Assembly: GCA_016124585.1 (NCBI GenBank)
Contig: WGNL01000019.1
Coordinates: 186,001-250,000 of the forward strand
Length of the DNA stretch: 64,000 nt
Reading direction: 5' to 3'
Source of the DNA: Bacteroidota bacterium
GTDB taxonomy: Bacteria; Bacteroidota; Bacteroidia; Chitinophagales; Saprospiraceae
The notes beneath the pieces were generated by a model. The model was given only the letters and a program-made list of their open reading frames with translations. It was not told the DNA's origin and made no database searches. Shown piece by piece: positions 34,267-50,100 of this stretch. Numbering within the stretch: position 1 is the stretch's first letter; each line of letters starts with the position of its first letter. A program made the position numbers and the translations under genes.

Positions 34267-34413
34267 GTGAAAAGGCCATCTGTGCTTTTCTCCTAGACAT
34301 TTTTCCATACTCATCCGCCGCTCTACAATTCGCCTCATCGCCATTTTTACCCGGTTGTTTTCGATTCCCACCCGCCTCATTTCAATAAAATTTCTTCCTA
34401 GAGGTTCGCCACC

Positions 34414-34453: not shown

Positions 34454-34765
34454 ATGAAGGCAAGCATCATTTTCTACATCGGACTGCTCTTGGACGGGCT
34501 TCTGTTGGCCACCACAGTTTCCAATATTTTACTTTCGCTACCCTATCTTCAAGACACTTCAAGCGGCCTAACCCCCTATGGAAGACTGGCTTCTTGGGCA
34601 ATTCCGTTGATGGTGGCAGCCCTGATGCTCACTGCATTTTTATTAAAAAGAGGAGGGAAGATGCTTCCTGCAAATATCCTGATTTGGATACCCGCCTTGC
34701 CCATGTTGGTGGGCCTCCTGATTTGGGGCGGCATGGCAGCTTTGTTCATTCTTGCTGGCAAATGA
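34454..34765 (+). CDS. Small integral membrane protein, unknown
   Basis: The 103-residue protein has three predicted membrane helices: IIFYIGLLLDGLLLATTV, ASWAIPLMVAALMLTAFLL and ILIWIPALPMLVGLLIW through to the C-terminus. Short charged loops (KRGGK) separate them. I do not recognise a family. It is first of a tight same-strand run (34454-38391) whose members are separated by at most 24 bp, so it is probably part of one operon of unknown purpose. Confidence 0.65.
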   Translation: MKASIIFYIGLLLDGLLLATTVSNILLSLPYLQDTSSGLTPYGRLASWAIPLMVAALMLTAFLLKRGGKMLPANILIWIPALPMLVGLLIWGGMAALFILAGK

Positions 34766-34789
34766 TGCTTAAATCAACTTGATTGAGCC

Positions 34790-35242
34790 ATGGAAATCAA
34801 AGACAAAATAAGCCTCGTTGTTAGTTTGATGATTGCCCTCGGCGGGACGCTCTTCGCCACCATTGCCATTCGGGAACACAACAAAACGGGGCATATCCTT
34901 CAAGCTGGTGTACAAACGCAGGGCATGGTCGTTGAAATGGGACGGCGCCCACGGAAGGTCGGAGAGCGGGTCACGCCGAATTCCTTTGCACCTGTCGTGC
35001 AGTTCACCACTGACAAAGGCGAGCAGCGCAAATATTACAGCACACTTTATTCTGGCCTTGATATGTACAAAATCGGCCAAATGGTGGATATTTGGTACTT
35101 GCCAAACGAGCCTGAAAAAGCGACGATGGCGGGCGGCGATGCTTGGATTTTATCGCTGGCTTTTAGCATTTTTGGTCTGGTCATGTGCCTGATAGGGTAT
35201 CCTTGGCTTTTCAAAATCATCTTCCGAAAACTCCGTGCCTAA
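34790..35242 (+). CDS. DUF3592-like two-helix membrane protein
   Basis: The 150-residue protein has N-terminal and C-terminal membrane helices (LVVSLMIALGGTLFATIA and SLAFSIFGLVMCLIGYPWLF). Between them lies a beta-rich domain with APVVQFTTDKGEQRKYYS and GQMVDIWYLPNEPEKA. This order (helix, beta domain that requests a valid XY-type path, helix) is that of DUF3592 proteins, whose function is unknown. The stop abuts the next ATG with no gap, suggesting coupled translation with the 477-residue protein. Confidence 0.75.
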   Translation: MEIKDKISLVVSLMIALGGTLFATIAIREHNKTGHILQAGVQTQGMVVEMGRRPRKVGERVTPNSFAPVVQFTTDKGEQRKYYSTLYSGLDMYKIGQMVDIWYLPNEPEKATMAGGDAWILSLAFSIFGLVMCLIGYPWLFKIIFRKLRA

Positions 35243-36676
35243 ATGCTGCTTTTCAAAACAAACACCATCCACCAAAAGCTTGATTACCAAGAAAAAGAAT
35301 GGACGCTGGAAGAATTGTTCACCAGCTACGAACCACTGTCGAGCGAGCCATTGGCCGTTCGGGTAGGAGCGATGCAGCAGGCCGTTTTCATGGCGGAGGA
35401 ATATTTCAGTGAGCTTTCGGAGGTGGCGCAACTGCGCTACGATTTTTGGAAACAATTGCGCACCAACCGCATCGAAGAACGCCAATACAAGTATTCAGTG
35501 ACAGGTAGGGACACGTACCAATGGGAACTGACGGTCAATTCCCAAGGGCTTTTTTACAAGGATTTGAACCCGATGTACGGTGAAATGGCGGGGCGGGTAC
35601 ATGAGCAATTGTTCAGTGATTTCTGGTTTTACGGCCCGCTGATGCCGATGCCCAACCTCAATGACCGTAAATGGGCGGTGTCGCAAATCAGAAATGCTTT
35701 CCTTCAAATTGGCCCCGTTTCTCAAAAGCATTTTGAGCTTTTTGAGTACCCGAAGCCGTCCGCCGTCCGCAATTGGGAGGAGGGCGACCACGTGGCGAAG
35801 GATTACTTGGATATGCAGCAGTACGGCCTCGAATATACCCGCTGGAACTGGCACGACGGGCCTACTTACACCAGTTTCATTGCCTTCGAGCGGCTGTTGG
35901 CCGACCCTGCGGGGCTGGAGTGGGCCGTCACGCCAGCAATTCGGGCGGAAATCATGCGCCACCTCCAGTCTGAAATTTATGCTCAAAAAAGCCAAGACAC
36001 TGGTGGCCCAATCTGGGACGAGCATGGCTCAGACCCAAACCCCACCAATGCCCGCTCGAAGCAGCTTTTCATGGAAAATGGCGGGCAAGTACACCAGATT
36101 TACCGGGACGGTTTCGGCGATGAGTACAAGGCGTCGCCAGCCGAGGAAAATGCATGGCGGCAGGAGTTGGTGGAAAATTACAAATACCGGCTCACACAGG
36201 AAAATAACGGCGTCGTGTTGACGCAGATAGTTCGCAGCCTGCAGCACAATTATGTCAAAAATGTGGACGAAATGCTGCTCGAAGCGGCAGCCACTACGAC
36301 TTCTTTGGCAAACAAACAGGCGATTTCGCAGACATTGTACGAGGTTTTCAACCACGAAAAAACCTTGGACGTGCTGCTCTCCCTGCTCCAGTTCGAGCAT
36401 GAGGAGAGCTACTGGCGGGACTATGTTTTCAGTTCCTTTGGCCGAATGCGGGACAACCGTGCGGTGCAGGGTTTTATCATAAAATGCCTGAAAGGTGACA
36501 ACGAAACCCATTTCAAAAAAGCCGTGGATGTGATTGCGTCTTGGGGGATGAAAGGCGATACTACCCTGATGAACAGGGACTTATGGCTCAGCCTCAATTG
36601 GGAGGACGCCTGCGCCGCCGACCCGCACTTCAATCATGCGCTTGAAAAAGCGATTAAAATAATTGAAAACAATTGA
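35243..36676 (+). CDS. Unrecognised 477-residue cytosolic protein; paralogue at 39257
   Basis: No signal peptide or membrane helix. The first ~240 residues match the whole 249-residue protein at 39257-40006: LEELFTSYEPL, RYDFWKQL, EQLFSDFWFYGP, KHFELFEYP and NWHDGPTYTSF all have counterparts. The second half (about 300-477) is helical with repeat-like HEAT character (SLANKQAISQTLYEV, YVFSSFGRMRDNRAVQGFI). A family is not recognised. It lies between a DUF3592 protein and a lipoprotein, whose TTG start overlaps its stop (TTGA). The duplication of the N-terminal module is the main clue to a shared, unknown activity. Confidence 0.7.
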   Translation: MLLFKTNTIHQKLDYQEKEWTLEELFTSYEPLSSEPLAVRVGAMQQAVFMAEEYFSELSEVAQLRYDFWKQLRTNRIEERQYKYSVTGRDTYQWELTVNSQGLFYKDLNPMYGEMAGRVHEQLFSDFWFYGPLMPMPNLNDRKWAVSQIRNAFLQIGPVSQKHFELFEYPKPSAVRNWEEGDHVAKDYLDMQQYGLEYTRWNWHDGPTYTSFIAFERLLADPAGLEWAVTPAIRAEIMRHLQSEIYAQKSQDTGGPIWDEHGSDPNPTNARSKQLFMENGGQVHQIYRDGFGDEYKASPAEENAWRQELVENYKYRLTQENNGVVLTQIVRSLQHNYVKNVDEMLLEAAATTTSLANKQAISQTLYEVFNHEKTLDVLLSLLQFEHEESYWRDYVFSSFGRMRDNRAVQGFIIKCLKGDNETHFKKAVDVIASWGMKGDTTLMNRDLWLSLNWEDACAADPHFNHALEKAIKIIENN

Positions 36677-37614
36677 TACGTCGAATCTTAAAACTGGCAA
36701 TTTTGGGCTTATCGCTTTTGGCTTTTTGGGGCTGTTTTCGAAAAAAAGCAGCCATCAGCAACTTGCAGGATTGGCTGGACAAGCACTATCCCAATCGCTT
36801 TGAGGTGCTGTCCACTGGCCCTGATGATGCCATCCGTAATATGAGCTTCAAGGTGAAGAGGTCGTTGGTGGCTGAAAAAGCGAACCCGTTGGTGCAAGCA
36901 GAATTGAAATGGGACAAGCGCCAGCCTGATTTCGACCTCACCACAGGCAGGGTGGACACGGTTTTTGCGCAAGCACAAACCTATTTTCAGGATGCGCAAG
37001 ATTTGCTTCGCATATTGAAATCACAAGGCTTTGATAAACCGTGTGTGAGCTTGAAGGACGGCATAGCGACCGTCATATTGTTTCATGAAGCTACTGAGGA
37101 ATATCGTCGGGAATGCGTGTTAAAACTGGAAAAAGCATTTAAATCATGGCCTAAATCCGAAGAATATGGCAAGGAAATATTGTTGATGGGAACTGATGCA
37201 TATACCAATATGCCCGGTGAAATATTGCCGATTGATTATTTCGTTGGCAGGGCATATTTAAAACAAGTGACCTATCGTTTTCAATTGTCTTACAATGATG
37301 AATTTGATGGGGAAAATTTAATGGACAATTGGATATTCAATACGGCGAGTGACCAATTTAATGCAGCATTTGAAAAAGCAAGAACAGAAGTGGAAAATTG
37401 GGCAAAAACCAATTATAAGCCTTATTTTTTCATGGAAAATTCGGAATTTGAACAAGTGAGTGAAAAGCCGTTGCGCTATCAATTCAAGTTCGCTTTCACC
37501 CATAAAAAACAAGCCGAAGACAGCACGGAATATGTGGAAGCCGACGGCTATTTTGTCGTGGATTTCGACATGGATAAAAATGAGGTTTTAAAAATAAAAA
37601 TAGAATTAAACTAA
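36673..37614 (+). CDS. Lipoprotein of unknown function
   Basis: The 313-residue protein starts at TTG 36673, overlapping the previous stop by four bases. The lipobox FWGC (Cys about 17) supports this start. The rest is mixed alpha/beta without membrane helices (NLQDWLDKHYPNRFEVLS; YFVVDFDMDKNEVLKIKIELN at the end). The middle is rich in AT and Lys codons compared with its neighbours. I recognise no family. Overlap with the 477-residue protein argues for joint expression. Confidence 0.65.
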   Translation: MIRRILKLAILGLSLLAFWGCFRKKAAISNLQDWLDKHYPNRFEVLSTGPDDAIRNMSFKVKRSLVAEKANPLVQAELKWDKRQPDFDLTTGRVDTVFAQAQTYFQDAQDLLRILKSQGFDKPCVSLKDGIATVILFHEATEEYRRECVLKLEKAFKSWPKSEEYGKEILLMGTDAYTNMPGEILPIDYFVGRAYLKQVTYRFQLSYNDEFDGENLMDNWIFNTASDQFNAAFEKARTEVENWAKTNYKPYFFMENSEFEQVSEKPLRYQFKFAFTHKKQAEDSTEYVEADGYFVVDFDMDKNEVLKIKIELN

Positions 37615-37620
37615 CGCCAT

Positions 37621-37983
37621 ATGCGATATTTAATAGGGCCGGAACTACTGTGGATGTTGGCGTTTGGCGCAGCCAAATTAATTGCAAACGCTAATGTGCC
37701 TCCCACAAAAGGCATGGACGATTTCATCGAAAAATGCTATTTCTATGTGCCGCTATTGGTCATATTTTGCTTCGCCATGTGGTGGCTGCCCTCAGTTGAA
37801 AAAAAATACTTGCTCCCAAGGGTTTGGGTGGCGAGCTTAATGGGCGGGCATTTCGTTTTGGAAAAAATATTGGCAGCCTACAGCAACCAAGGGCCGGGCA
37901 TCAGCATGGGTTATTTAGTGGGACTCATATTCTTAGGCTTTTGGTTGACAGTCGGCACCATCATCGTTTTAATAAAATTCTAA
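37621..37983 (+). CDS. Small four-helix membrane protein, unknown
   Basis: The 120-residue protein is almost entirely hydrophobic, with helices around ELLWMLAFGAAKLIA, FYVPLLVIFCFAMWWL, VWVASLMGGHFVLEKIL and YLVGLIFLGFWLTVGTIIVL. It lies 6 bp after the lipoprotein gene. No family is recognised; an integral inner-membrane partner of the operon products is plausible. Confidence 0.6.
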   Translation: MRYLIGPELLWMLAFGAAKLIANANVPPTKGMDDFIEKCYFYVPLLVIFCFAMWWLPSVEKKYLLPRVWVASLMGGHFVLEKILAAYSNQGPGISMGYLVGLIFLGFWLTVGTIIVLIKF

Positions 37984-37995
37984 AATCAGAAAACA

Positions 37996-38391
37996 ATGAC
38001 ATCAGGATTCATGGGCATTGCCTTCAATTTTATCAAAAGCGCCATGAGGTCGAGCGCTAACAATCAAGGCCATCAACCGTTTAAGCCAAAGCCAAGTACG
38101 GTTCCAAATCCCAACGGCTACAAAGTTGGGTACGAAACAACAGGTCGGGAAGGCAAGGTAATTTTCGAGGGCGAAGGCCAACGATTTGCCATGTATTGGG
38201 AGTTTGGGGGTGGCGATGTCATCACCATCGTTTACGTTCCACCAGTGGAAAAATGGGTGGAGCATACCCATATTCCATTGGAAAAACGACAGGAAGTCTT
38301 GGACTTTATAGGTCGGGAAACGGTGCGGCTGAAGATTTCCTCGAATGGGAGTTATAAATTGGAGAATAATACGCTGCTGTTTTATGCTTAA
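37996..38391 (+). CDS. Unrecognised 131-residue protein
   Basis: Basic, glycine-containing N-terminus (GFMGIAFNFIKSAMRSSANNQGH) and a beta-rich body (YETTGREGKVIFEGEGQRFAMYWEFGGGDVITIVYVPP) ending in LENNTLLFYA. It may be a small beta-barrel or immunity-like fold, but no family is recognised. It is 12 bp after the four-helix gene and last in the operon. A large palindromic element follows. Confidence 0.6.
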   Translation: MTSGFMGIAFNFIKSAMRSSANNQGHQPFKPKPSTVPNPNGYKVGYETTGREGKVIFEGEGQRFAMYWEFGGGDVITIVYVPPVEKWVEHTHIPLEKRQEVLDFIGRETVRLKISSNGSYKLENNTLLFYA

Positions 38392-38436
38392 TAATAATTC
38401 ATGCCTGCATTGATAAATTACAGTCTGATATGCTTT

Positions 38437-38592
38437 GTTCTTTTCCTTGATGAAAAGAACCAAAAATCAAGGCTGTATTTCTTTTTTAACGCTGAAGGGC
38501 CACCCAAAACCCTAAACTAAACCAAACTCGCTGCGCTCGGACAGGGTTTAGTTTTTAACGGGTTTTGGATGGCCCTTCAGCTAAAAGAAATA
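38437..38592. repeat. Compound palindromic repeat
   Basis: The left part (38437-38472) has GTTCTTTT...AAAAGAAC and CCTTGAT...ATCAAGG in overlapping pairs. The main part (38476-38592) pairs 38491-38511 with 38561-38581 at 20 of 21 positions, with outer TATTTCTTTT/AAAAGAAATA and inner AAACTAAACC/GGTTTAGTTT arms. The apex holds CTCGCTGCGCTCGG. It resembles dispersed repeats of Bacteroidota; a small non-autonomous element is possible. Confidence 0.65.
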
Positions 38593-38662
38593 AGGCCGAA
38601 TAAAGGTCTGGGATAATTTGAAAATTAATTTCAATTACGACAATTACTAAATCAAAAAAACT

Positions 38663-39226
38663 ATGAGTTTTCTTTATGATTTAAAACGGAGTATTTTTCC
38701 AAAAAAGGAAGAATATGCGATACCACAAGTGCCGTTTACCTTCCCTTATTCCGAGGATAAAAACACCCGCAAAGCGCAGATAATCAGCAATTTGCAAAAC
38801 AGCATATTATTCGAAGACACGGGTATTTTTTTACCTCGGAACACACCTTATGGCGCATTGGATAAAATAGCGGAACATAAGCGGGAAATGGGCGACCGCA
38901 TTATTTGGTATCTCGGCCATCGTACCATATTGGGCGGGTATAGATGCCACGCTACCGTCATGATGTGGCGAACTGGGCCGCTTTCCAGTCCAATTCGCCA
39001 AATTGAGGAAACGCTGGGGCATGACCATGAGGGCCACCAAAACCTTTTGGCTGCACGGGCTGCCATCACCGCTACATTTGGGGAACTAAAAGGCGATGAT
39101 GTGGGTAGTGGCAATGATTTATATCTGGGCAGCCTGAATTGGGCACTTGGGGATTGCCACGTCACCCTCGTTGGCATTGAGCAATTTGCTTACAAATATT
39201 TTCTCCATGTCGGCTTGTCGGATTAA
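38663..39226 (+). CDS. Unrecognised 187-residue protein
   Basis: Soluble, no signal peptide. Distinctive stretches include IFLPRNTPYGALDKIAEHKREMGDRIIWY, shown here as three parts: IFLPRNTPYG, ALDKIAEHKREM and GDRIIWYLGHR. A His-rich segment, TLGHDHEGHQNL, follows. No family is recognised. It is 30 bp before the 39257 gene and on the same strand, so it is likely co-transcribed. Low GC and Lys-rich composition distinguish this pair from the surface-protein genes. Confidence 0.6.
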   Translation: MSFLYDLKRSIFPKKEEYAIPQVPFTFPYSEDKNTRKAQIISNLQNSILFEDTGIFLPRNTPYGALDKIAEHKREMGDRIIWYLGHRTILGGYRCHATVMMWRTGPLSSPIRQIEETLGHDHEGHQNLLAARAAITATFGELKGDDVGSGNDLYLGSLNWALGDCHVTLVGIEQFAYKYFLHVGLSD

Positions 39227-39256
39227 TTTCAACCATTCATTCAATGCAATCGCCAA

Positions 39257-40006
39257 ATGATAGAAATAAAAGAAGGTGACGTCATTATTAAAGTAGATAG
39301 GTACAAGCGCAAATGCAGTTTGAAAGACTTGTTTGAAAAATTTGAGCCTTTGGTGCTGGAGCCTTTAGCAACGCAACATGAAACCATGGTAAACATCCTA
39401 CCGCTGGCAGCACCTGTTTATGAAATGCTTTCTGAAAATGGGCGACTGTGCTATGATTTTTGGAAACAATTGGAACCGAAGCGGATTAAACAAAAGAAAT
39501 TCAGTTATTCCAAGAAGGTGATGGATAACTTTAAATGGGAAGTCAAACTTACGCCGAAAGGCATTTTATACAAAGACATCACAGGCGAATATTTAAAAAC
39601 AGGAAAAATATACGAACAGCTTTTGAGCGATTTTTGGCTATATGGGCCTCGAATGCCCATTTCTGAGTTGGCCATACGGGAAGAAATGGTAGAAGGTATC
39701 CGCAACGCTTTAAAACAAGAGGGGCCAGTTACGAACAGACATTTTGACTTGTTTGAGTACCCATCCACCTACAGCAGGCTGAGTTGGACAGTAGGTGACC
39801 GAACTGTGGAGGATTTCGTTATTGTCCGAGACTATGGCATTGATATTGGCGAGACTAACTGGCACGATGGCACTGTTTTTTTGGATTTTGTGTCCTTCGA
39901 AAGATTCTTGAAAGGTCATGGATTGGATGAGCAATATTTTAGACCAAAAGTCAAGACAGCTATCCTTAAGCACTTAAAAAATGCTTTGCAAGCTAGTAAT
40001 CCATGA
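39257..40006 (+). CDS. Unrecognised 249-residue protein; paralogue of the 35243 gene
   Basis: Closely matches the N-terminal half of the 477-residue protein at 35243-36676: LKDLFEKFEPL, CYDFWKQLEPKRI, EQLLSDFWLYGPRMP, RHFDLFEYPS and NWHDGTVFLDFVSFERFL. It lacks the helical second half. No membrane segment. Two loci with the same module around unknown membrane proteins suggest a duplicated functional unit, for instance a specificity or binding component. Function unknown. Confidence 0.65.
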   Translation: MIEIKEGDVIIKVDRYKRKCSLKDLFEKFEPLVLEPLATQHETMVNILPLAAPVYEMLSENGRLCYDFWKQLEPKRIKQKKFSYSKKVMDNFKWEVKLTPKGILYKDITGEYLKTGKIYEQLLSDFWLYGPRMPISELAIREEMVEGIRNALKQEGPVTNRHFDLFEYPSTYSRLSWTVGDRTVEDFVIVRDYGIDIGETNWHDGTVFLDFVSFERFLKGHGLDEQYFRPKVKTAILKHLKNALQASNP

Positions 40007-40112
40007 TTATTTTCACCAAGCGGTGCACCTCTAATTTAACCTAAATCACTCCAATCGGAACAAATCAAAAGCAACTTGGTGTTTGGGATAAACTTCAACC
40101 AGTTAAAACAAC

Positions 40113-40583
40113 ATGGAATCAAGAACAAAACATACCTACCGCACCGAACTTTCCGAATTTGCAAAGGAAGTGCTCGTGGAATGCCCAAACTGTCAGCACC
40201 AAGCGCTCGTAAACACCTTCGGCGAAACGGTTTACAAGGCCGAAAAAGTGAAAGTCCGGGTCGTCTGCGGGTATTGTGGATTCAACAAAGACCTCGAACG
40301 CATCTGGGTCAGGAGCAAGCACCTGATTCTTGGCGAGGCAATTGACCCGTTTTTCCACCTGCCGCTCTGGCTGAAAATAGAAGTAAACGGCAACTTGCTT
40401 TGGGCATACAGCTTTGAACACCTGCGATTTATCGAAGAGCATATCGCCGCCAAATTGCGGGAGCGAAACGGCTTTGAGCATTTCAAAACCCGGAGCGTCG
40501 GTGCCCGCCTTCCCCGCTGGATGACGGCTGCCAATCGGCGGGAGGATATGCTTCGGGCAATAGAAAAACTGCGCTCAAAGTAA
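40113..40583 (+). CDS. Small zinc-ribbon protein, unknown
   Basis: The 156-residue protein has a two-knuckle zinc ribbon: CPNC at residue about 28 and CGYC at about 55. Downstream is an alpha/beta segment (FFHLPLWLKIEVNGN, LRFIEEHIAAKLRERNGFEHF) and a basic C-terminus (LPRWMTAANRREDMLRAIEKL). Nucleic-acid binding is plausible, but no family is secure. It is not obviously linked to its neighbours. Confidence 0.65.
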   Translation: MESRTKHTYRTELSEFAKEVLVECPNCQHQALVNTFGETVYKAEKVKVRVVCGYCGFNKDLERIWVRSKHLILGEAIDPFFHLPLWLKIEVNGNLLWAYSFEHLRFIEEHIAAKLRERNGFEHFKTRSVGARLPRWMTAANRREDMLRAIEKLRSK

Positions 40584-40592
40584 TAGTTTGAT

Positions 40593-40703: not shown

Positions 40704-40755
40704 AAAAAACAACTCCCTAGCTTTATCCATCTATTTTCCCGGCCGACGCTTCGTC

Positions 40756-40838
40756 CCCCATTTCCCCCCGTTTAATTCAAATCCAAGTCGGGTCATCCCC
40801 AAAAAATTGGTGGTCGGCGCATGCTTTCACCATCTTTG
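40756..40838 (+). promoter_or_regulatory. Shared 39-bp element plus promoter of the GRAS gene
   Basis: The 39 bp at 40756-40794, including CCCCATTTCCCCCCG and ATTCAAATCCAAGTCGGGTC, are identical to 43735-43773 before the aminotransferase gene. Then come AAAAAATTG (-33 TTG 40807-40809) and CATCTTTG (40831-40838; 21-bp spacer), 66 bp before the ATG. The identity directly upstream of -33 looks like an activator site. Confidence 0.75.
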
Positions 40839-40904
40839 GCTCATCAATTAAAAACGAGGTGTCGCAACCTCCAATTCATTCAAATTTTAAACAAGTTTTT
40901 CATC

Positions 40905-41978
40905 ATGAGCCAGACAACCCAATGTGCAATCTATCAGACCCTGAGCGACTTCATGAAAATGGCCCCGAACTTCGACGGCCAGACCAAACAAGAAATCGAG
41001 TCTTTCTTCGCCTACTGCAAGGAGGACATGGACAACGACTCCGAAAAGCTACTCGCCACGCTGTTCGTCAAAGCCCTGAACAAGAAAATCAACTCAGAAT
41101 TCATTGGTGAGAACATCTATCTCGGCAAGTACGAGACCTCGCAAATCCAGTTGTTCAACATTCTGATTGAGAAATTCCCATTCGTAAAATTCAGCCAGCA
41201 GATTACCAACAGCGCCATAGTGGAGGAAATGCAGGGCTGCGACGAAGTAACACTCATGGACATCGGCATCGGTCAAGGCACACAGGTGTTGAACATCATC
41301 AGCCTTGCCACCAAATTGCCGGAACTGAAAAAACTGCACGTCGTCGGCATCGAGCCATTCGCCGAAGCGCTTTACAAAGCCGAAGTGGACATTCTGAGCT
41401 TGAACGGCAAAATGCCATTCGAAATCACGTTCACAGGCATCCATGATTCCGTTGAAAACGTGGATTTCTCTACCATCGAAAACATGGGCGGCAAGGTGAT
41501 AGTGAACGCTTCCTTGGCACTGCACCACATCCAGTCCGACCTGCTTCGCAAGGACACCATCGCAAAAGTGAAGGCCATGAACCCCAGCGCTTTCATTTTA
41601 ATTGAGCCAAATGTGAACCACTACGAGCCGGATTTCCACGCCCGGTTCGTCAATTGCTACAAGCATTTCTACCATATTTTCCAGGTCATTGACCGCATTG
41701 AGAACATTGGCAACATGGACAAAAACGCTCTGAAGCTGTTTTTCGGACGGGAAATCGAGGACATCATCGGCAAGGATGAAAAAGACCGTTTCGAGAAGCA
41801 CGAACTGGCCACCAGTTGGATTGACAGGCTGAACGAGTGCAATTTTTCCATCAAAAACAACATCCTGAAATCGCCTGTCGAGGCAGGCTGCGGCGTGGAA
41901 ATCAATTTCCATGAGGAAGGCTTTCTCGGCTTTACCCATGGCGATGAGACGGTGCTGGCGGTGATTTACGCCAATTGA
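40905..41978 (+). CDS. Bacterial GRAS-family protein (putative SAM-dependent methyltransferase)
   Basis: The 357-residue protein, called from ATG 40905, carries a full GRAS-like order. FPFVKFSQQITNSAIVEEM (91-109) matches the plant P-x-x-K-F-A-x-x-T-A-N-Q-A-I-x-E motif. VTLMDIGIGQGTQ (115-127) matches VHIID, a Rossmann-type SAM-site glycine loop. ASLALHHI (202-209), LIEPNVNHYEPDFHARF (232-248), GREIEDII (281-288) and a SAW-like end (LGFTHGDETVLAVIYAN) follow. GRAS domains in plants regulate gibberellin signalling; bacterial members were proposed from structure comparison to be small-molecule methyltransferases. It shares its promoter module with an aminotransferase, suggesting a common pathway. 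A terminator follows. The substrate is unknown. Confidence 0.78.
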   Translation: MSQTTQCAIYQTLSDFMKMAPNFDGQTKQEIESFFAYCKEDMDNDSEKLLATLFVKALNKKINSEFIGENIYLGKYETSQIQLFNILIEKFPFVKFSQQITNSAIVEEMQGCDEVTLMDIGIGQGTQVLNIISLATKLPELKKLHVVGIEPFAEALYKAEVDILSLNGKMPFEITFTGIHDSVENVDFSTIENMGGKVIVNASLALHHIQSDLLRKDTIAKVKAMNPSAFILIEPNVNHYEPDFHARFVNCYKHFYHIFQVIDRIENIGNMDKNALKLFFGREIEDIIGKDEKDRFEKHELATSWIDRLNECNFSIKNNILKSPVEAGCGVEINFHEEGFLGFTHGDETVLAVIYAN

Positions 41979-42011
41979 GAACATGGTAGAGAATTAGAGA
42001 TTTTCCGAGGT

Positions 42012-42055
42012 AAAAGACCTGTAAGCAGCAAAGCTTATGGGTCTTTTGCTTTTTT
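42012..42055 (+). terminator. Terminator after the GRAS gene
   Basis: AAAAGACCTGTAAGC (42012-42026) pairs with GCTTATGGGTCTTTT with two mismatches and is followed by GCTTTTTT. Confidence 0.75.
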
Positions 42056-42166
42056 AGAATTATCAGGTTTTATAATCCAAATTCCTGGGAAAAACATTGC
42101 TGCTCGTCCAACCTTGGCTCAATTTCTGATATGTCAATTTTACAGAATATCAGAAACTCCTCCCAC

Positions 42167-42997
42167 ATGAAACAACTCTGCTTTTTATTACTTGCTTTTT
42201 CCCCAATCGTCGGATATGCCCAGAACGGCTATTCTGCGGGTTTTTCGCTGATAACTGAGTACAGCTACAGCAGTTTCGATACGAAGGGCATGAACGGTTT
42301 TGTGAATACCTTCAATGAATTTTGGGGGCAAAAACTTTCCAAACCTTACAGCGAATTTTCAGGCCACGAGTTTTCGCATCCCAAGTTCGGTATTGGGTTT
42401 CGTTTCCTCACCCAAGGCAACGCAGGTTTCACGGCCAGCACCGCTTTTTTGTATGGCCGAAAGAAGTATCAGCACTCCGCCACCTGGGCCAATGATGTGC
42501 AGAATGAGTTGGATTTTAAAGTGCGGGATTTGTCGTGGACAGTGACCACGGGTATGCACATCCGGAACGCCATTTTTTTAGAAGTTTTTTTCGATGCCAA
42601 TGGCCGGAAACTGGAAATGGCTCACGCCACCATTTACCAAGATGGCTCGAAGAGTTTGTCATCCGAATACAAGCTCAACGGACTTTACACGGGGAAAATC
42701 GCTTCTTCGGATATTGGGTTGCAGCTTGGTTTTCGTCTCGGGCCGATACTGCTGTATTGCAAGCCGACCTGGGCGCTGAAAAATTTCCCGCCGGGCAAGG
42801 ACCTCGTGACCTTGGACGACTATACCAACGTGAATTACCCACCCACTGATTTTCCTTCCGATTACCGGAAATACACCACCGACCCACTGGGCTACGTGGA
42901 GCAAAATCTCGGCGTTAAAACAGATGACTTTGAGGGTTTCCGGCTAGCTTTTGGGGCTGAATTAATCTTCGGAGGGAAAAACAAAAAGAAGGATTGA
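42167..42997 (+). CDS. Outer-membrane beta-barrel-like protein, unknown
   Basis: The 276-residue protein from ATG 42167 begins with a clean signal peptide (MKQLCFLLLAFSPIVGYAQ). The earlier ATG at 42131 would add 12 polar residues before it. The body alternates aromatic and small residues in beta-strand pattern (YSAGFSLITEYSYSSF, IGFRFLTQGNAGFTASTAFLYG, GLQLGFRLGPILLYCKPTWAL) and ends in GAELIFGGKNKKKD. This resembles OmpA/porin-like small barrels of Bacteroidota. The ligand is unknown. It lies 48 bp before a lipoprotein gene. Confidence 0.65.
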   Translation: MKQLCFLLLAFSPIVGYAQNGYSAGFSLITEYSYSSFDTKGMNGFVNTFNEFWGQKLSKPYSEFSGHEFSHPKFGIGFRFLTQGNAGFTASTAFLYGRKKYQHSATWANDVQNELDFKVRDLSWTVTTGMHIRNAIFLEVFFDANGRKLEMAHATIYQDGSKSLSSEYKLNGLYTGKIASSDIGLQLGFRLGPILLYCKPTWALKNFPPGKDLVTLDDYTNVNYPPTDFPSDYRKYTTDPLGYVEQNLGVKTDDFEGFRLAFGAELIFGGKNKKKD

Positions 42998-43045
42998 TTG
43001 AAACTGAAAATGGCATCATCCTTCATTTTTCAAATGCAAAATATC

Positions 43046-43552
43046 ATGAAAAACATATTCGCACTGCTGCTTTTATCTGCAAGCCTGACGCTTATTTTAA
43101 CCAGCTGCCAACCCGATGAAATCAAATATCCGGATGCCCTGATAGGAACCTGGACCATCACAAAGTCTGAGCGTATGGGCATCCTATCTGATGGTTCGGT
43201 GGACAAGTTTGAGGATATAGAAAATGCGGGCACCTTGGATATTTTCGAAGCCACTCCTCCTGCCGAAACTTTCAAGGAATTCGTGTTTAACTATACCAAT
43301 TTTCAGGGCGACAAAGTGACATTGAACAGTTTGATTTACACGGACGAAGACAAGCGCCGGGTATCATTTTCAAAGGTTTTGTGCGGATCTCCTTTCGAGT
43401 GCGATATCGTCTGGACGGTGGAGGAAAACAAGAAAAACAAACAGGTGTGGTCTACCTATGGCAATGAAGAGGCGTTTTTCTATCCAAACGACAGGTACGA
43501 CCCCACGGATGACGACCTGCACCTCAAGTGGCGCATCACTTTGGAAAAATAG
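43046..43552 (+). CDS. Small lipoprotein, lipocalin-like
   Basis: The 168-residue protein called from ATG 43046 has an SPII signal (FALLLLSASLTLILTSC, Cys about 20). An upstream TTG at 42998 would place 16 extra residues before it and is rejected. LIGTWTITKSERMG near the start resembles the first strand of lipocalin-like domains (GxWxxxx), and the rest is beta-rich. It probably belongs with the upstream barrel protein as an operon. Function unknown. Confidence 0.62.
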   Translation: MKNIFALLLLSASLTLILTSCQPDEIKYPDALIGTWTITKSERMGILSDGSVDKFEDIENAGTLDIFEATPPAETFKEFVFNYTNFQGDKVTLNSLIYTDEDKRRVSFSKVLCGSPFECDIVWTVEENKKNKQVWSTYGNEEAFFYPNDRYDPTDDDLHLKWRITLEK

Positions 43553-43734
43553 GGTTCATTCGAATGAATGAAAAACGGTTGCAATTCCCAGCCTGAACTT
43601 GGCTGACCTATCACTGCTTTTAAGGCTGTTGCTTTTATTTTGCCGGAGGCAAATCAGTTAAGATACTGCAAATACCTGGCTGCATCGTTTTGCCCATCTC
43701 CAGCCAACGGCCAATCCCCCTTCCCCGGTTCATT

Positions 43735-43816
43735 CCCCATTTCCCCCCGTTTAATTCAAATCCAAGTCGGGTCGTTTTCAAAAAATTGTATCCCCCTCCC
43801 CCTGCCCCCATCTTTG
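43735..43816 (+). promoter_or_regulatory. Shared 39-bp element plus promoter of the aminotransferase gene
   Basis: 43735-43773 is identical to the element before the GRAS gene. The -33 TTG is 43786-43788 and the -7 box CATCTTTG is 43809-43816 (20-bp spacer), 80 bp before the ATG. C-rich sequence flanks the element and fills the spacer. I see no gene in 43553-43896. Confidence 0.75.
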
Positions 43817-43896
43817 TTTCATCAAACGAAAAAACAGGGCGGCAATCAGCCCGGATTCGTGAACCACATTCAAATAACAACCTAATCCAACATCCA

Positions 43897-45069
43897 ATGA
43901 CTAACCTATTTTTTAGCGATACTCTGCGTAGTACCCCAAGTCGTATTAATTCTGCGCAATGCTCTTCCCGACTGCTCCTCGACAAGAACGAGCAGTCGGA
44001 AGACGTGGCTTCTTCTATCAAGCAGCAAGTGTTGGAAACCCTGATGAACACTGACTGGAACCGCTACCCAAGCGCTGATTTGAAAGATATAGAAAATGCA
44101 GTTGCCAATTATTGCGGATTAAATCCTGACAATATTGTTTTAAGCCCAGGCTCTGCGAATATCATCACCACATTGCTCAATTATTTCGCTTTAAATAATA
44201 AACATATTGTGATTGCGCAGCCAACTTATACGCTGTTCGATTACCATTGCAAAACATATAACATCCAATATGAGCCTTGGATGCTGACTACTGATTTGGA
44301 ATATGATTATAACAATATGCCGGAATTGAAACCCGGTTCGGTGCTCATCGTCACTACACCGAACAACCCGGTCGGCAATTCCATGAAGCGGGAAAAATTG
44401 GAAGAAATATTGACCATCAACCCCGAATCATTTGTATTGGTGGATGCGGTGTATGCCGAGTTTGCCGATGAGGATTTCACGCCGCTTATCGCCAAGTATG
44501 GCAACCTGATGGTATTGCGCTCCTTCTCCAAAGCCTTTCCAGTAGCGGGTCTGCGCTTCGGCTACCTTTGCGCAGCACCACAAACAGCGGCCATCGTGCG
44601 CAAGCTAATGCTTCAGTTTTCCATCAACCACTTGACTCAGGTATTTGCACGGGAAGTGCTTTTCACTCCTGCGTTTTTGGCAGATTCCCGCAAGCGGGTA
44701 AAGGCCATCATTGCGGAGCGTGAAAGTATGTATCGCCTGCTGAAATTCCGTTTTGATGACCAAGCACTGAAAGTATACAAGTCACAGGGCAACTTCCTGC
44801 TGATGCGCATCCACGACGATGCTGCCTTCGGCAAACTCATGGCGGATTTGGATAAAAGCGGCATCAAAGTATTGAACACCTCTCCATTTCCATTACTCCG
44901 CAACACGTTCCGAGTGTCAATCGGCACGAAGGAAGAAAACAACAGCTTCCTACGCTGTATCACCGAGAGCCTCGGCCAAAAGAGCTTGCGCAAACAAGCA
45001 CAAATGCGGTTGGTGGAAAATCACACTGCCGAAAGAATGAGCCAGTTCTTGCTGGCAAGTAATTTCTGA
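43897..45069 (+). CDS. PLP-dependent class I/II aminotransferase, HisC/CobD-like
   Basis: Fold-type I aminotransferase of 390 residues from ATG 43897. An in-frame reading from 43690 would include the promoter and is rejected. Hallmarks are RYPSADLKDIENAVANYCG (57-75), SPGSANIITTLLNYF, VTTPNNPVGN (Asn about 157), DAVYAEF (Asp 183 and Tyr 186) and the PLP lysine in SFSKAFPVAGLRFGY (Lys 212). It resembles histidinol-phosphate aminotransferases, but GSANII replaces the usual GSDE. With no his genes nearby, a different amino substrate is likely. The promoter element is identical to that of the GRAS gene, which suggests joint regulation. Pathway unknown. Confidence 0.85.
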   Translation: MTNLFFSDTLRSTPSRINSAQCSSRLLLDKNEQSEDVASSIKQQVLETLMNTDWNRYPSADLKDIENAVANYCGLNPDNIVLSPGSANIITTLLNYFALNNKHIVIAQPTYTLFDYHCKTYNIQYEPWMLTTDLEYDYNNMPELKPGSVLIVTTPNNPVGNSMKREKLEEILTINPESFVLVDAVYAEFADEDFTPLIAKYGNLMVLRSFSKAFPVAGLRFGYLCAAPQTAAIVRKLMLQFSINHLTQVFAREVLFTPAFLADSRKRVKAIIAERESMYRLLKFRFDDQALKVYKSQGNFLLMRIHDDAAFGKLMADLDKSGIKVLNTSPFPLLRNTFRVSIGTKEENNSFLRCITESLGQKSLRKQAQMRLVENHTAERMSQFLLASNF

Positions 45070-45142: not shown

Positions 45143-45523
45143 ATGTCAAACATCAAGACCAAGATTGACGAGTGGGAGGTCACTGACCTCGAAGACAACG
45201 GCGTGCTGCGCATTTACGTCGAACACAACACAGAAATGGGCAACCGGGGCGTGCCGGGCATACAGGTTTGGTACACCGTGGCGGGAGGTACTTCCATCGT
45301 GAATTATGAGCCCGTCCATGTGGAGCGCTGGGCCTATCAAGCGCAAAAAGCAGGCGAAACTGACTACCTGCTCACCGATTATTCCTGGATATATCATGAG
45401 GATACCTACGTTAAAAACAGCCTCATAATCAGCGATAAATTAAAAGCCAAAGTATCTGTGAAAGTGCGCAGCAAAAAGGAGCCGATTACCAAGGAATACG
45501 AACTGCCTTTTACGATTGAATAA
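45143..45523 (+). CDS. Unrecognised 126-residue beta-rich protein
   Basis: No signal peptide. The sequence is beta-strand-rich and acidic at the N-terminus (DEWEVTDLEDNGVLRIYVEHN, shown as DEWEVTDLEDNG and VLRIYVEHN), with GIQVWYTVAGGTSIVNY and a C-terminal VKVRSKKEPITKEYELPFTIE. An Ig-like or jelly-roll small fold is possible. It is 73 bp after the aminotransferase, separated by the palindrome. Whether it belongs to that pathway is unclear. Confidence 0.6.
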   Translation: MSNIKTKIDEWEVTDLEDNGVLRIYVEHNTEMGNRGVPGIQVWYTVAGGTSIVNYEPVHVERWAYQAQKAGETDYLLTDYSWIYHEDTYVKNSLIISDKLKAKVSVKVRSKKEPITKEYELPFTIE

Positions 45524-45548
45524 AATCATGGGGATTTGACTTGTGTAT

Positions 45549-45645
45549 TTTTTTCCCGCAGATTAACACAGATTTTATTCGCAGATTGACGCAGATTTAA
45601 TCAGCGATATCTGCGGAAGAATCAGCGAATATCTGCGGGAAAAAC
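45549..45645. repeat. CGCAGATT/ATCTGCG repeat element
   Basis: TTTTTCCCGCAGATT at the left pairs with AATATCTGCGGGAAAAA at the right. Between them GCAGATT recurs, alternating with ACGCAGATTT and AGCGATATCTGCGG. Such repeats are common in Bacteroidota intergenic DNA; a mobile or selfish palindrome is likely. Confidence 0.7.
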
Positions 45646-45676
45646 TCTAATCAATAAACCTTTATCAACCCAGGAA

Positions 45677-46720
45677 ATGATTGTCCTCGGAAATTTCTTC
45701 CTCGCTGTAGCTGCCATAGTTTTCCTGCTCATCTGCAATTTGATTTATTTCAAGACCCCGCCCGGGGGGGATGCAGTGGTAGGTTATGCATGGTCCATCA
45801 TCTTTGGTATTCTGGCATTTTCCATTTGCATGGCGATTGTCACGGCAATTATCGGGTGGCAAGGTGGCTTCGGTTGGGTCGGCACCTCGACAGGCCAGCG
45901 GGTTGCACTTGTTTTGCTTGGCTTTTTGTTGATTTTGGTAGGAAATGGCTTTTTCATGGCCAACGAATACCCTCGGGACCTCTCCCCTGCCATGCGGAAG
46001 ATAGTCCGGATGATTCCCGCCGTACTGCCCGTTCTGTTGCTGATTGGCGCAGCCCTTTTGCTTAATTTCAAATACACGGCGCTCGCCGGGCCAGTTTACA
46101 AAATCCCCGTTTTCAGCAGCTTGTTTCTCAGTTCTTTAGGCTTTGCAATTATTCTTTTTGGCCAAGCACAGCGCTCCGCCGCTAGAGTAAAAGCTGATGA
46201 AGATTTCAGGGACAGAACCCACCAAAACCACTTGAACACCATCGACAGTACCGATGTGATGAAAAACGGGGTATTCCTCTATGTTTTCACCGATGCAAAC
46301 CACAAAGCAGATGTACGGGAAAAGGCGTTGGCTAAAATAAAATCCCGCCCCGATTGGCAGGAAGAACTTGTGCGCCGCTTGCAAAATGACTGGGCGCCGG
46401 AGGCTTTTACTTTTCTCGCTTCCAATGAGGTGGATAACAAAACGCTATTCCCTGAAGCTGTGCGGCAGGGCATTATAATTCAGGCAAGACTTATTCGGGA
46501 ATCAATTCGCAAGTGCCGTGACAAGTACGACCTCTACGAGGGCAGGTTCACTTGGGAAATCGACCGGGTGATACGCACAGTGGATAAGTTCGATAGCATA
46601 GGCGTGGATTTCAAACCAGTCATGCAGGAACTCCGCAATGCGCTGGACGAAAAAACGGATTTTGAAAAACCTCGGCTCCCAGCCAAAGGGCTGCTGGATA
46701 ATTGGCAGAAAAAGCATTGA
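45677..46720 (+). CDS. Membrane protein with cytosolic C-terminal domain, unknown
   Basis: The 347-residue protein has about five N-terminal membrane helices (LGNFFLAVAAIVFLLICN, SIIFGILAFSICMAIVTAI, VALVLLGFLLILVGNGF, IPAVLPVLLLIGAALLL, LFLSSLGFAIILFG). Its hydrophilic C-terminal half (about 170-347) contains VLFTDANHKADVREKAL-like helical repeats (ALAKIKSRPDWQEELVRRLQ). Helices like HEAT repeats are possible. It is 6 bp before a small membrane protein gene. No family recognised. Confidence 0.6.
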   Translation: MIVLGNFFLAVAAIVFLLICNLIYFKTPPGGDAVVGYAWSIIFGILAFSICMAIVTAIIGWQGGFGWVGTSTGQRVALVLLGFLLILVGNGFFMANEYPRDLSPAMRKIVRMIPAVLPVLLLIGAALLLNFKYTALAGPVYKIPVFSSLFLSSLGFAIILFGQAQRSAARVKADEDFRDRTHQNHLNTIDSTDVMKNGVFLYVFTDANHKADVREKALAKIKSRPDWQEELVRRLQNDWAPEAFTFLASNEVDNKTLFPEAVRQGIIIQARLIRESIRKCRDKYDLYEGRFTWEIDRVIRTVDKFDSIGVDFKPVMQELRNALDEKTDFEKPRLPAKGLLDNWQKKH

Positions 46721-46984: not shown

Positions 46985-47102
46985 TCACCTGCTAGTCCCT
47001 CCAAATTCTGCTTGGGTTGCTTTCGTAACGCTTCATTTCAATTCCACCACACTTCAAGTAGAAAAACTCCCCTACCTCTTTCCTACTCCCTACCTTCGCC
47101 CC

Positions 47103-50100
47103 ATGCGCAAGCTATGCCACATATTATTCCTGTACGGCGGCCTATTGGTATGGTCGGCCACGGGTTTTGCCCAAGAAAAGCAACTCCTTTCTGTGGAGCG
47201 GTTTGATGAAAACAAAGGGCTGAACCTCAACGGCATTGACGATATTTTCCAAGACCGGGAAGGCTTCCTTTGGCTGGCAACGCCGGAGGGGCTGGTGCGT
47301 TTTGATGGCCATGATTTCCGGTATTTCCGCCATGTACCGGGTGACTCGACTACCATCGGAGGGAACCACGTTTTATGCGTCACTGAGGATGCAGATGGCA
47401 ATATCTGGGCGGGCCTGACCCGGGGTGGGGTTTGCCGCTATGACCGAAAGACGGGTCGGTTCAGGAACTATGAATTTACCGAAAAATTGAAAATCAAGAC
47501 CACCCCTGTCATCCGCACTTTTATTGACCGGAAGGGGGAGGTCTGGTTGGGTGTTAACAACTATGGCCTTGTCCATTTGGACAAAGAAACCGGGGATTTC
47601 AAAACCTACGACATCGTGACGGCCCAAAGCGCTCCCCACCTGACCAAAGAGGAAGTGCCCAACTACAACACCGTCCAAAATTTTTGGGAGGACGAAAATG
47701 GCCTACTCTACTGCGCCACTTCCGACGACCTCTACACCTTCGACCCGAAAACTGAAAAGGTTACTTCACTTCGATACGATAAACGTGCACCCAATGGCGT
47801 GCGGCTCAACCAAGCCTATGCCCTCCTGCCCGAAGGTGACTGGCTGTGGGTGGGCGGCTGGGCCAGCGGGCTGCGGCGATTTAACCGCAAAACGGGGGAA
47901 TGGAGGCAGTACATGATGGAGGAAAACCCGCTCATACCGGATGCCGTCAACATCATCAGTAAGATGGTACCGAAAAGCAGCAACGAGTTTTGGGTGACAA
48001 GTACGGACAAGGGTTTTGGCGTTTTCAACAAAACAACCGAACAGTTCTATTTTTTTGGGCAGGACACCTTGAACTACCCCGAAATTCCGCCCGCTGCCTT
48101 GGGCGGCCTCTGCATTGACAAGCAGGGCGATATTTGGCTGATACATGGGGCGGCCCTACTTCGTATCCAATTGAAAAACAGACAGTTCCACCTCCATCCA
48201 GTCAAATCGTCAAAACCCGTCACGAAGGAAGGGAGCTACCTCACCAAAGTGTTCGAGGATAGGGAAGGTCGTTTCCGTTTCTACGGTTTTGCCATGGGGG
48301 ATGGCTTGCAGGTGTTGGATAAAAAAACGGGCAAAACGACCGCCCCCGAGTTTAAAATCCAGCCTGGCGTGGACGAAAGCAACCAGCAGGTCAGGGACAT
48401 CCTGCAAGCCCACGATGGCACTATTTGGGTGCTGGGACGGCATATTCTCTACCGCTTCAATCCTCAGACCCTGCGCTTGGAAGTGCCTCCGCAACCTCCC
48501 GTATTTTCCCCGGAATTTGGCACCAATTATTTCAACATGATGGCCGAGGACGGACAGGGGAATATCTGGATGGGCACGGCGATAGTCGGGCTGTTCCGCT
48601 ACAACCCCACGACGGGCGAAACCACCCATTTCATGCCCGATGAAAACAAGCCGGGGGCCGTTCCTGCCAGCGTGGTGGGAGTCGTCTGCGCCGACGGCTC
48701 GGGGCGGCTTTGGTACGCCAGCCGTGACAAGCAGGCTTATGGTTACTACCACTCCGTCGAGGGCCGCTTTGTGTACCTAGATGCCAACGGCGAGGTGACG
48801 ACAGAATTGGCCTCGCTGCGCATGAACAATTATTTTTCGGATAGAAAAGGCGATATGTGGGCTTTTACAGAGCAGGGGGTGATGCATTTCGATGCCACGT
48901 CGGAGCCACCCTGCCTAATCAAAAAATACACGATGGCCGATGGGCTGCCCTCCGACTACACCCTCTGGGGAACGGAAGACGGCAACGGAAATATTTGGCT
49001 CATCTCCGGCCACAACATCGTGAGGCTGGAGCCAACGACAGGAAAAATCAACACCTTCACCAACCAAGACGGCTATCCCACTTCCCACACTGGCATCGGG
49101 ACGCAGATGGACGGCGATATTTTCCTGCCTACTTACAAGGGCTACATCACCTTCAACCCCGATTCGCTGCGCACAACCATGACCAAAGCTCCACTTGTCC
49201 TGACCTCTTTCAAGGTAAACGACGAAGAGCAATACCACGGCAGCTCAAGGGCCTTTGAAAAACCGCTCGTAGTGCCGACCGACGGGCGTTATTTCTCCCT
49301 GGAATTCGCCTCGCTGGAATTCGCTCACCCAGAATTGAGCCGCTTTGAGTATCAGCTTGAGGGGCTTGACAAACAATGGGTTAAGGCGGGAAATCGACGA
49401 TTGGTCAACTATACGAATGTGCCCGCAGGCCATTATATTTTTTTGGTAAAACTGGAGGGGCAGCCCGATTCTGAAGCCTTCGCTGTGCCGCTCGTGGTGA
49501 AGGTCGCTTTTTATAAAACCAACTGGTTTTGGGCGCTCATTACAATGATTTTGGCGGGTGTGGTGTTTGCTTATTTCCGCAACCGCCAATTGCAACGGCA
49601 GAAGATGTCCGAGCTTTTGGGCAAGGCCCAATTGCTGGAAAAAGAAAAGGCGCTGGTGCAGTACGAAAGCCTCAAACAACAGCTGAACCCACACTTCCTT
49701 TTCAACTCGCTGACCTCGCTCGGCAGCTTGATTTCCATTGACCCAAAGGGAGCCGCAACCTTTCTTGACAGCCTGAGCAAGACCTACCGCTACATCCTGA
49801 AAAGCAGCGAGCGGGAGACTGTGCCGCTGGCAGAGGAACTGAAGTTTGGGGAGACGTTTGTGAAGCTGCAAAAAACGAGGTTCGGTGAAGGCTTGCGGGT
49901 AAACTTGAACGTAGACGAAGCCGATTTCCATCGGAAAATAGTTCCCGTCACCCTGCAAAACCTCATCGAGAACGCGATCAAGCACAACATCATCGACGAG
50001 GAAGAACCGCTAGAAATTGACGTGACGGTGGAGGGTGGTTATCTCGTGGTTCGCAATAATTTACAGAAGAAAAAATTCGTGGAAACGAGCAACAAGCGTG

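Follow-up and report, generated by a model that had tools for sequence, protein, structure and literature searches.

A repeat shared by the promoters of a bacterial GRAS gene and an aminotransferase gene is probably a duplicated LytTR operator

Why do two promoters in one Saprospiraceae genome carry the same 39 bases, one ahead of a GRAS-domain gene and the other ahead of an aminotransferase gene? The locus is in Bacteroidota bacterium GCA_016124585.1 (Saprospiraceae), contig WGNL01000019.1, positions 186,001 to 250,000 of the forward strand. This whole stretch of 64,000 nt is referred to as the window, and its positions are used throughout. In plants, GRAS proteins have a central part in hormone responses; their relatives in bacteria are regarded as methylases that act on small molecules. 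A preliminary description of the window proposed a shared promoter module, a common regulator, and one pathway for the two enzymes, proposals that found support, but also export or binding of the product by the two proteins encoded between them, which did not. The genes concerned are as follows.

40905..41978, + strand: GRAS-domain protein, predicted SAM-dependent small-molecule methyltransferase (PF03514)
42167..42997, + strand: barrel-like outer-membrane-type protein, between the pair in the window only (no Pfam match)
43046..43552, + strand: lipoprotein-like protein, between the pair in the window only (no Pfam match)
43897..45069, + strand: HisC-like PLP aminotransferase, partner of the GRAS protein (PF00155)
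45143..46720, + strand: two cluster genes, encoding 126 aa (45143-45523) and a 347-aa membrane-type protein (45677-46720), both found in loci L010 and L031 of related genomes, the second also in L032

Direct sequence comparison confirmed that all 39 bases at 40756-40794 are the same as those at 43735-43773. Both copies are followed, as previously described, by AAAAAATTG (40801-40809; 43780-43788), a spacer of 21 or 20 bp, and then CATCTTTG (40831-40838; 43809-43816). Without gaps, the similarity around the repeat reaches 63 nt at 89%. When the whole genome (6.63 Mb, 45 contigs) was searched with the 63-nt query, 2 sites were found; a 25-nt core allowing up to 3 mismatches returned the same 2 sites, and its reversed control returned 0. 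No third copy of the 39 bp was found across the 6.63-Mb genome. Because it occurs in 2 places genome-wide, with none in the reversed control, the repeat is neither chance nor a dispersed repeat; the latter reading, which would have placed it at dozens of unrelated sites, is ruled out by the 2 copies.

The identity of the two stretches stood, but their length was not that of the real element. The 39 bp are the larger part of a 51-bp operator consisting of three 9-bp direct repeats at a spacing of 21 bp (12 bp between). Repeat 1 lies directly 5' of the identical stretch (40747-40755; 43726-43734), and repeat 3 ends just 3' of it, 9 bp ahead of the -33 TTG at both genes. The two operator copies are 90% alike over 51 nt, whereas outside the operator their sequences are not alike. 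The -33/-7 promoter consensus was taken from the available text of PMC7366714.

40747..40797, + strand: operator before the GRAS gene, repeats at 40747, 40768, and 40789 (CGCTTCGTC, CCGTTTAAT, CGGGTCATC), score 32.6
40801..40838, + strand: GRAS promoter, -33 region AAAAAATTG, -7 box CATCTTTG at 40831-40838
43726..43776, + strand: operator before the aminotransferase gene, repeats at 43726, 43747, and 43768 (CGGTTCATT, CCGTTTAAT, CGGGTCGTT), score 35.7
43780..43816, + strand: aminotransferase promoter, AAAAAATTG, -7 box CATCTTTG at 43809-43816

The 21-bp period was also found in related genomes. Scored over 10 upstream regions, a set without the GRAS copy of the window, the triple repeat reached 161 at spacing 21 versus at most 144 at 20 other spacings. 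None of 300 dinucleotide shuffles reached 161 at any spacing, a count that overstates independence because the upstream regions have a common ancestry. With the period test run unsupervised, the top triple fell at the operator in 7 of the 10 regions and elsewhere in L009 and L035. Repeat 1 was 83 to 84 bp from the -7 box in all 11 operators measured. Repeat 3 is degenerate in L031 and L036, and L039 has a weak operator site only, though its regulator is 51% identical. Outside its operator, the window's aminotransferase promoter most resembles those of the GRAS operons in L032, L031, and L010.

A model built from 8 operators of other genomes scored 35.7, 32.6, 30.0, and 25.7 at four gene starts in the window, and the next match scored 16.2; controls reached at most 23.2 with other spacings or offsets and at most 20.0 when reversed. 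The rule for the -7 box in these operator scans was fixed after the sites had been seen. The four promoters of this type precede the GRAS gene, the aminotransferase gene, a gene group starting at 34454, and a sensor kinase-LytTR operon (47103). The proposal of a common regulator for the two enzyme promoters is thus supported by the score at spacing 21, the 83- to 84-bp geometry, and the four promoters.

34331..34381, + strand: third operator, repeats at 34331, 34352, and 34373, -7 box TACATTTG at 34414-34421, score 30.0
34454..40583, + strand: gene group behind the third operator (34454, 34790, 35243, 36673, 37621, 37996, 38663, 39257, 40113), presumably one transcript
47029..47098, + strand: operator and promoter of the sensor gene, repeats at 47029 and 47050, -7-like box TACCTTCG at 47091-47098, score 25.7
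47103..50201, + strand: sensor histidine kinase with two-component propeller and Y_Y_Y domains, 1032 aa (PF06580, PF07494, PF07495)
50275..51048, + strand: response regulator with receiver (PF00072, 3.9e-13) and LytTR DNA-binding (PF04397, 2.3e-17) domains, candidate common regulator

The three-repeat structure, the two additional promoters of the same design, and the adjoining LytTR two-component system were absent from the preliminary description.

The third operator is weak in a plain sequence model (E 0.96), and the position in a sister genome equivalent to that before 34454 holds a site at noise level (15.6). The operator alignment was a 52-nt version without the 34331 site, an earlier one that included promoters having been misgapped by the 34331 row and by L011 and L035. 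Homologues of 34790, 35243, 36673, 37621, 37996, and 40113 lie in the same order upstream of the GRAS gene in L031, and 34454 has a homologue in L092. Before the sensor gene, the last repeat is 41 bp from TAnnTTCG in 5 of the 7 loci examined (window, L010, L031, L032, and L072); the sensors of L009, L039, and L041 have no preceding operator scoring 20 or more. Scores of 20 to 22 are noise in the DNA of the 28 fetched loci because such matches also fall at places without clear meaning (L031 at 11084, L037 at 529, L075 at 16304, L084, and L018). Within the genome of the window, the sequence-only model R1 gave 13 matches at E of 10 or less, the best beyond the two building sites reaching 19.4 bits (E 0.0076). 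In the same genome, the triple pattern with up to 3 mismatches returned the 2 known sites plus two matches with 3 mismatches, one of them overlapping a reading frame. No Rfam match over the gathering score was found in a search for riboswitches in 34000-51500.

The enzyme assignments of the preliminary description agree with the domain matches. The GRAS protein matches PF03514 at 2.2e-37 (129.3 bits versus a gathering cut-off of 27), and residues D119, G121, G123, G125, and E150 are invariant in 4/4 sequences. We take these to be the glycine-rich SAM motif I and the acidic residue after strand 2; on these features, the protein is predicted to be a SAM-dependent methyltransferase. Among solved structures, its relatives are the DELLA and Scarecrow-like proteins of plants. 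A structure prediction from 2 sequences was set aside (mean pLDDT 44). Bacterial GRAS proteins have been linked to Rossmann methyltransferases (Zhang, Iyer and Aravind 2012, as cited in the available text of PMC4279901), and the window protein resembles them in its PF03514 match and in keeping the SAM motif residues. The partner is a class I/II aminotransferase (PF00155, 1.3e-44) in which K212 and R339 are invariant in 4/4. K212 is presumably the PLP lysine, and both residues presumably have functional roles. Although its best NCBIfam and solved-structure relatives are HisC, its 233.7 bits (233.5 in a repeat search) fall short of the cut-off of 276.55 for the hisC equivalog (TIGR01141), which a different gene in the genome clears with 338.1. 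It also differs from HisC in having a non-arginine, by alignment and with numbering by count, at the position of E. coli Arg322, which we take to have a known role.

The GRAS protein and aminotransferase were found in the same 14 of the 398 family genomes sampled (G1027, which scored under the GRAS cut-off, was excluded from the counts). They are adjacent in 13/13 of the other family genomes, with gaps of 10 to 119 bp. Synteny in related genomes therefore agrees with the functional pair that had been proposed, and the two enzymes likely make one small molecule in a common pathway, presumably an undescribed one. An apparent aminotransferase-GRAS fusion in G331 resolved into adjacent genes, since the matches were in different frames. 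L074 has the operator, sensor, and regulator, with no aminotransferase within 18 kb. For each of the two enzymes, a tree of 15 proteins has weakly supported forks near the window, and both trees place L031 nearest. The window alone has the pair split, by the barrel-like protein and the lipoprotein. These two proteins had no match (E 1e-6) in the 17 related loci compared, and the barrel protein was found in 0/13 other genus genomes searched, some of them incomplete; the idea that they export or bind the pathway's product is unsupported.

Which regulator might bind the operator? According to the available text of PMC6193735, LytTR sites consist of direct repeats of 9 bp, in most cases separated by 12 bp, immediately ahead of -35, and are autoregulatory. 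A three-repeat type of LytTR operator exists, and LytTR regulators are mostly activators, according to the available text of PMC11347149. The window's operator, with 9-bp repeats and 12 bp between, falls within the LytTR pattern of approximately 9 bp with 10 to 13 bp between and, at the GRAS and aminotransferase genes, lies directly upstream of the -33 region. The protein at 50275-51048 combines a receiver and a LytTR domain; as a BtsR or LytR equivalog it was rejected, with NCBIfam scores of 92.3 of 246 and 87.5 of 375 bits. Because the geometry agrees with that of published LytTR operators, the cluster's own LytTR regulator appears to be the best candidate for the common regulator. The sites of HdrRM/BrsRM of Streptococcus mutans are likewise 9-bp direct repeats with 12 bp between, upstream of -35 and also before the regulator operon (PMC6193735, available text). 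However, the window's enzyme promoters have three repeats and are of the Bacteroidota -33/-7 type, and where those systems have a membrane inhibitor protein, the window has a response regulator and a propeller histidine kinase. RcoM, with 12 to 13 bp between its three direct repeats, and CoxC, also with three repeats, are similar in number (PMC11347149, available text), but their repeat sequence is unlike the window's. According to the same text, CoxC has a built-in sensor domain and acts as a repressor at a site that overlaps -35; repeat 3 in the window, by contrast, ends 9 bp before the -33 TTG.

The repeats, their geometry and conservation, and the co-occurrence and adjacency of the genes can be read directly from the DNA. 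In the interpretation that we consider probable, the repeat is a duplicated LytTR operator through which the local LytTR system activates the GRAS gene, the aminotransferase gene, the 34454 group, and its own operon, and the two enzymes act on one molecule. The propeller histidine kinase (47103-50201) would detect a cue and phosphorylate the LytTR regulator (50275-51048). The regulator would then bind the three 9-bp direct repeats, which at 21-bp spacing share one DNA face, and from this position just ahead of the -33 region would bring RNA polymerase to the weak -7 boxes. The GRAS gene, the aminotransferase gene, the 34454 group, and the regulator's own operon would be switched on jointly, the last as positive feedback; the regulator is probably self-activating. 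Methylation by the GRAS protein and transamination by the aminotransferase would modify a common small molecule. In the ancestor, a single operator would have preceded one operon with both enzyme genes; the barrel/lipoprotein pair would have come to lie between them in this lineage, with an operator copy at each enzyme gene. We infer which regulator binds, that it activates instead of repressing, and that the two enzymes have a pathway in common.

It is possible, although unlikely, that one or more other LytTR regulators of this genome bind the operator and that the neighboring sensor pair is a fellow target rather than the controller. The genome has 25 LytTR matches, and immediately downstream of a different LytTR gene (regulator 28% identical) is a related site with two repeats. 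However, 10 of 13 other family loci have, in the DNA fetched around the pair, a near-full-length match to the window regulator; its own operon has the operator in 5 of the 7 loci examined; and loci with another type of regulator have a different, 20-bp repeat. Agreement of the 9-bp repeats, the 12-bp intervals, the site upstream of -33, and the LytTR gene behind the same element makes it improbable that the regulator belongs to another family, or that this is a structural promoter element whose LytTR-like spacing is coincidental, even though binding by a LytTR protein is a prediction, repeat 3 is degenerate in two loci, and the repeat sequence departs from the LytTR repeats in the available text of PMC6193735.

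The closeness of the two operator copies and their occurrence in the genome here only might suggest that a promoter was recently duplicated on the spot and that the identity is no more than its trace, without shared regulation of interest. This is very improbable because the operator geometry is conserved: the same element precedes the GRAS gene in other genera, at a fixed geometry, and beyond the operator the two copies are unlike each other. A tblastn search with 30 proteins for remnants of a second GRAS or aminotransferase gene within 41979-43735 yielded nothing better than E 0.043; duplication followed by loss of such a second gene may have occurred all the same.

Both LytTR operators and GRAS proteins of bacteria have precedents. 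In the open-licence literature, judged by title and start of abstract, we found no paper on a GRAS-aminotransferase-LytTR regulon or a bacterial GRAS-aminotransferase pair. More speculatively, and on balance doubtfully, the cluster may be a self-contained small-molecule signalling circuit with an autoinduction loop: the enzymes would produce a diffusible signal, the co-regulated propeller kinase would detect it, and the LytTR regulator would activate itself as well as the enzymes. Comparable loops are agr and lqs.

The steady partner enzyme, the nearby sensor, and the precise operator provide a concrete handle. The aminotransferase partner would restrict the chemistry to keto or amino acids, and when the pathway is on would be set by the four operator-bearing promoters. 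For Bacteroidota, the locus also offers a well-conserved case of LytTR-type operator anatomy, and it is an example of a split operon whose genes kept the same operator. The autoinduction loop, if true, would have at its base a bacterial relative of proteins that serve hormone responses in plants.

The preliminary description reported two identical 39-bp elements in the window and proposed that they mark a common regulator. The two copies are real and alike at every base, and whole-genome searches for a dispersed repeat, the second version with a 25-nt core and up to 3 mismatches allowed, found no third copy in the 6.63-Mb genome. Behind the first copy lies a gene for a GRAS-domain protein (40905-41978; PF03514, 2.2e-37) and behind the second a gene for a class I/II aminotransferase (43897-45069; PF00155, 1.3e-44). 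Comparison of GRAS upstream regions found the 39-bp block in other genera. The element is part of a predicted operator comprised of three 9-bp direct repeats at a spacing of 21 bp. The shared module is a longer unit than first described, and its first repeat lies just outside the 39 bp.

Spacing 21 gave the highest triple-repeat score (161) across 10 upstream regions; for the remaining 20 spacings between 12 and 32, the score never exceeded 144. At no spacing did any of 300 shuffles attain 161, a significance inflated by the shared ancestry of the regions. The best triple was at the operator in 7 of the 10 regions; among the loci fetched from other genomes (L-numbers), L009 and L035 had theirs elsewhere and L039 had only a weak site. 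When the scored genome was omitted from the model, 10 of 11 regions had their best site where it was expected, L039 being the one failure. This result is supportive rather than independent, because the seed sites were chosen by eye and two of the loci, L011 and L035, belong to a single genus. The invariant columns of a gapless 52-nt alignment of 10 rows (C1, T5, C22, T26, T36, and T47) recur every 21, T36 excepted.

Bacteroidota promoters are described as having TAnnTTTG at -7 and TTTG near -33 (PMC7366714), the -7 element likewise in PMC9723704. The CATCTTTG boxes of the operator promoters differ from this consensus at the first base. In all 11 operators measured, a set that does not include L039 and L033, the distance from the start of the first repeat to the -7 box is 83 or 84 bp. 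L033 has a two-repeat operator before its GRAS gene (score, 26.1) and, by eye, a long inverted repeat in the GRAS leader, between operator and start codon (~6830-7100). An inverted repeat also occupies 40586-40710 in the window, flanked by 40583 and the GRAS operator, with 47-nt arms that are 81% complementary and 31 nt between them. Blastn of this stretch against L031 gave only chance-size matches; the inverted repeat may be REP-like or a small mobile element.

For the scan of the window, a model was built from 8 operators from other genomes and a fixed distance to a -7-like box, a box rule fixed only after the sites had been seen. Four sites stood out, all before genes.

Predicted operator sites in the window
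43768, plus strand, aminotransferase operator site, score 35.7
40789, plus strand, GRAS operator site, score 32.6
34373, plus strand, operator site of the gene group from 34454, score 30.0
47050, plus strand, sensor kinase operator site, score 25.7

The fifth-ranked site on either strand scored 16.2, reversed sequence up to 20.0, and other spacings (17-20, 22-25) and distances (35-40, 43-49) 23.2 at most. An earlier model from all 10 operators returned the identical four sites, with 5 block-shuffled windows reaching 19.6. Among seven sensor genes examined, two or three repeats precede those of the window, L010, L031, L032, and L072, and the distance between the last repeat and TAnnTTCG is exactly 41 bp in each; the L036 sensor has repeats and a poorer box, and the L009 sensor has no repeats upstream. 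Scans of L039 and L041 gave no site of at least 20 before their sensors. L032 has an additional operator (27.6) before a 207-aa gene with a homologue in the L031 cluster, judged by opening residues. At the 34454 position, the sister genome has a correctly placed site that scores 15.6, the noise level. In the five sensor genes with the 41-bp distance, the -7-like TAnnTTCG box ends 4 bp before the ATG (47091-47105 in the window), which points to a transcript with little or no leader. The products of 35243-36676 and 39257-40006, which matched no Pfam family, both match the N-terminal part of one L031 protein and look like partial paralogues.

Downstream of the operator at 47029 are a propeller/Y_Y_Y/histidine kinase sensor (47103-50201) and then a receiver-LytTR response regulator (50275-51048). 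The fetched DNA of 10 of the 13 other family loci has a near-full-length match to this regulator, 51-87% identical in L009, L010, L011/L041, L031, L032, L036, and L039 and 30-32% in L034, L038, and L040; the domain scan among these ten covered L009's regulator. The three loci without a match (L033, L035, and L037) are short or cut contigs. At 25 LytTR matches in the 6.63-Mb genome, a randomly chosen position would be expected to have about 0.1 such matches within 15 kb. Geometry and neighborhood make the cluster's LytTR protein a candidate regulator of the operator. LytTR operators described in PMC6193735 consist of direct repeats of 9 bp, in most cases with 12 bp between them, just upstream of -35, and serve positive autoregulation; three-repeat LytTR operators are known (PMC11347149). 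Upstream of GRAS in L034, L038, L040, L067/L073, and L037, the triple-repeat operator was not seen; these regions favor a direct repeat with a spacing of 20 (summed score, 49; runner-up of 17 spacings, 43), with repeat sequences that vary among the five and are poor in L040. The regulator is about 30% identical to the window's in all of these except L037, where none was found. These five related regions fit an operator and regulator changing together. Elsewhere in the genome, a CCATTCATT-N12-CCACTCGTT repeat lies 3' of another LytTR regulator gene (L081, G000:C14 near 7818), a hint that other LytTR systems of the genome use related operators. Behind the LytTR regulator, the window (51069-51473), L010, L031, and L032 carry a globin gene, which in L036 stands behind the aminotransferase.

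GRAS was found in 14 of 398 genomes sampled from the family, and the aminotransferase (E <= 1e-60) in exactly those 14. In all 13 besides the window's the two genes are close neighbors, with 10-119 bp from GRAS stop to aminotransferase start, as the proposed association of the two enzymes would predict. GRAS itself is rare (in the phylum sample, 4 of 395 genomes; in the class sample, 8 of 395, counting one under the cut-off). Outside the family, eight further genomes exceed the Pfam cut-off (3 from the phylum sample and 6 from the class sample, one common to both), and in five (G405, G887, G928, G1001, and G1097) an aminotransferase of 42-63% identity lies directly 3' of GRAS, the G1001 match covering part of the protein only. 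G331 has a distant aminotransferase (24%) just upstream of GRAS, and none was near GRAS in the DNA read from G872 (18 kb) or G383 (16 kb). L074 (7472-12569) has a GRAS gene with a triple-repeat operator, a sensor, and a LytTR regulator; no aminotransferase was found in the 18 kb read.

The window is alone among the loci read in having the pair split, by a 1918-bp gap that holds a barrel-like protein and a lipoprotein. Their proposed role in exporting or binding the pathway's small molecule is not borne out: neither was matched in the 17 related loci compared (E 1e-6), and the barrel protein is missing from the 13 other genomes of the genus searched, some of them incomplete. The two operators share 46 of 51 bases (90%). 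In the sequence 3' of the operator, the aminotransferase copy is closer to the GRAS-operon promoters of L032, L031 (46 nt at 80%), and L010 than to the window's GRAS copy. On this likeness, it seems to be the aminotransferase that has the older operon promoter, the operator cores having been kept or made alike.

The solved-structure relatives of the GRAS protein are plant DELLA and Scarecrow-like proteins, and its SAM motif residues are kept in all 4 aligned sequences. The aminotransferase is HisC-like, yet under the hisC cut-off, which a separate gene elsewhere in the genome exceeds. Pairs of keto-acid methyltransferases and aminotransferases make beta-methyl amino acids. By analogy with these, and given the kept SAM motif and the sub-cut-off HisC likeness, the natural reading is that the two enzymes would act on the same small molecule, one by methylation and the other by transamination.
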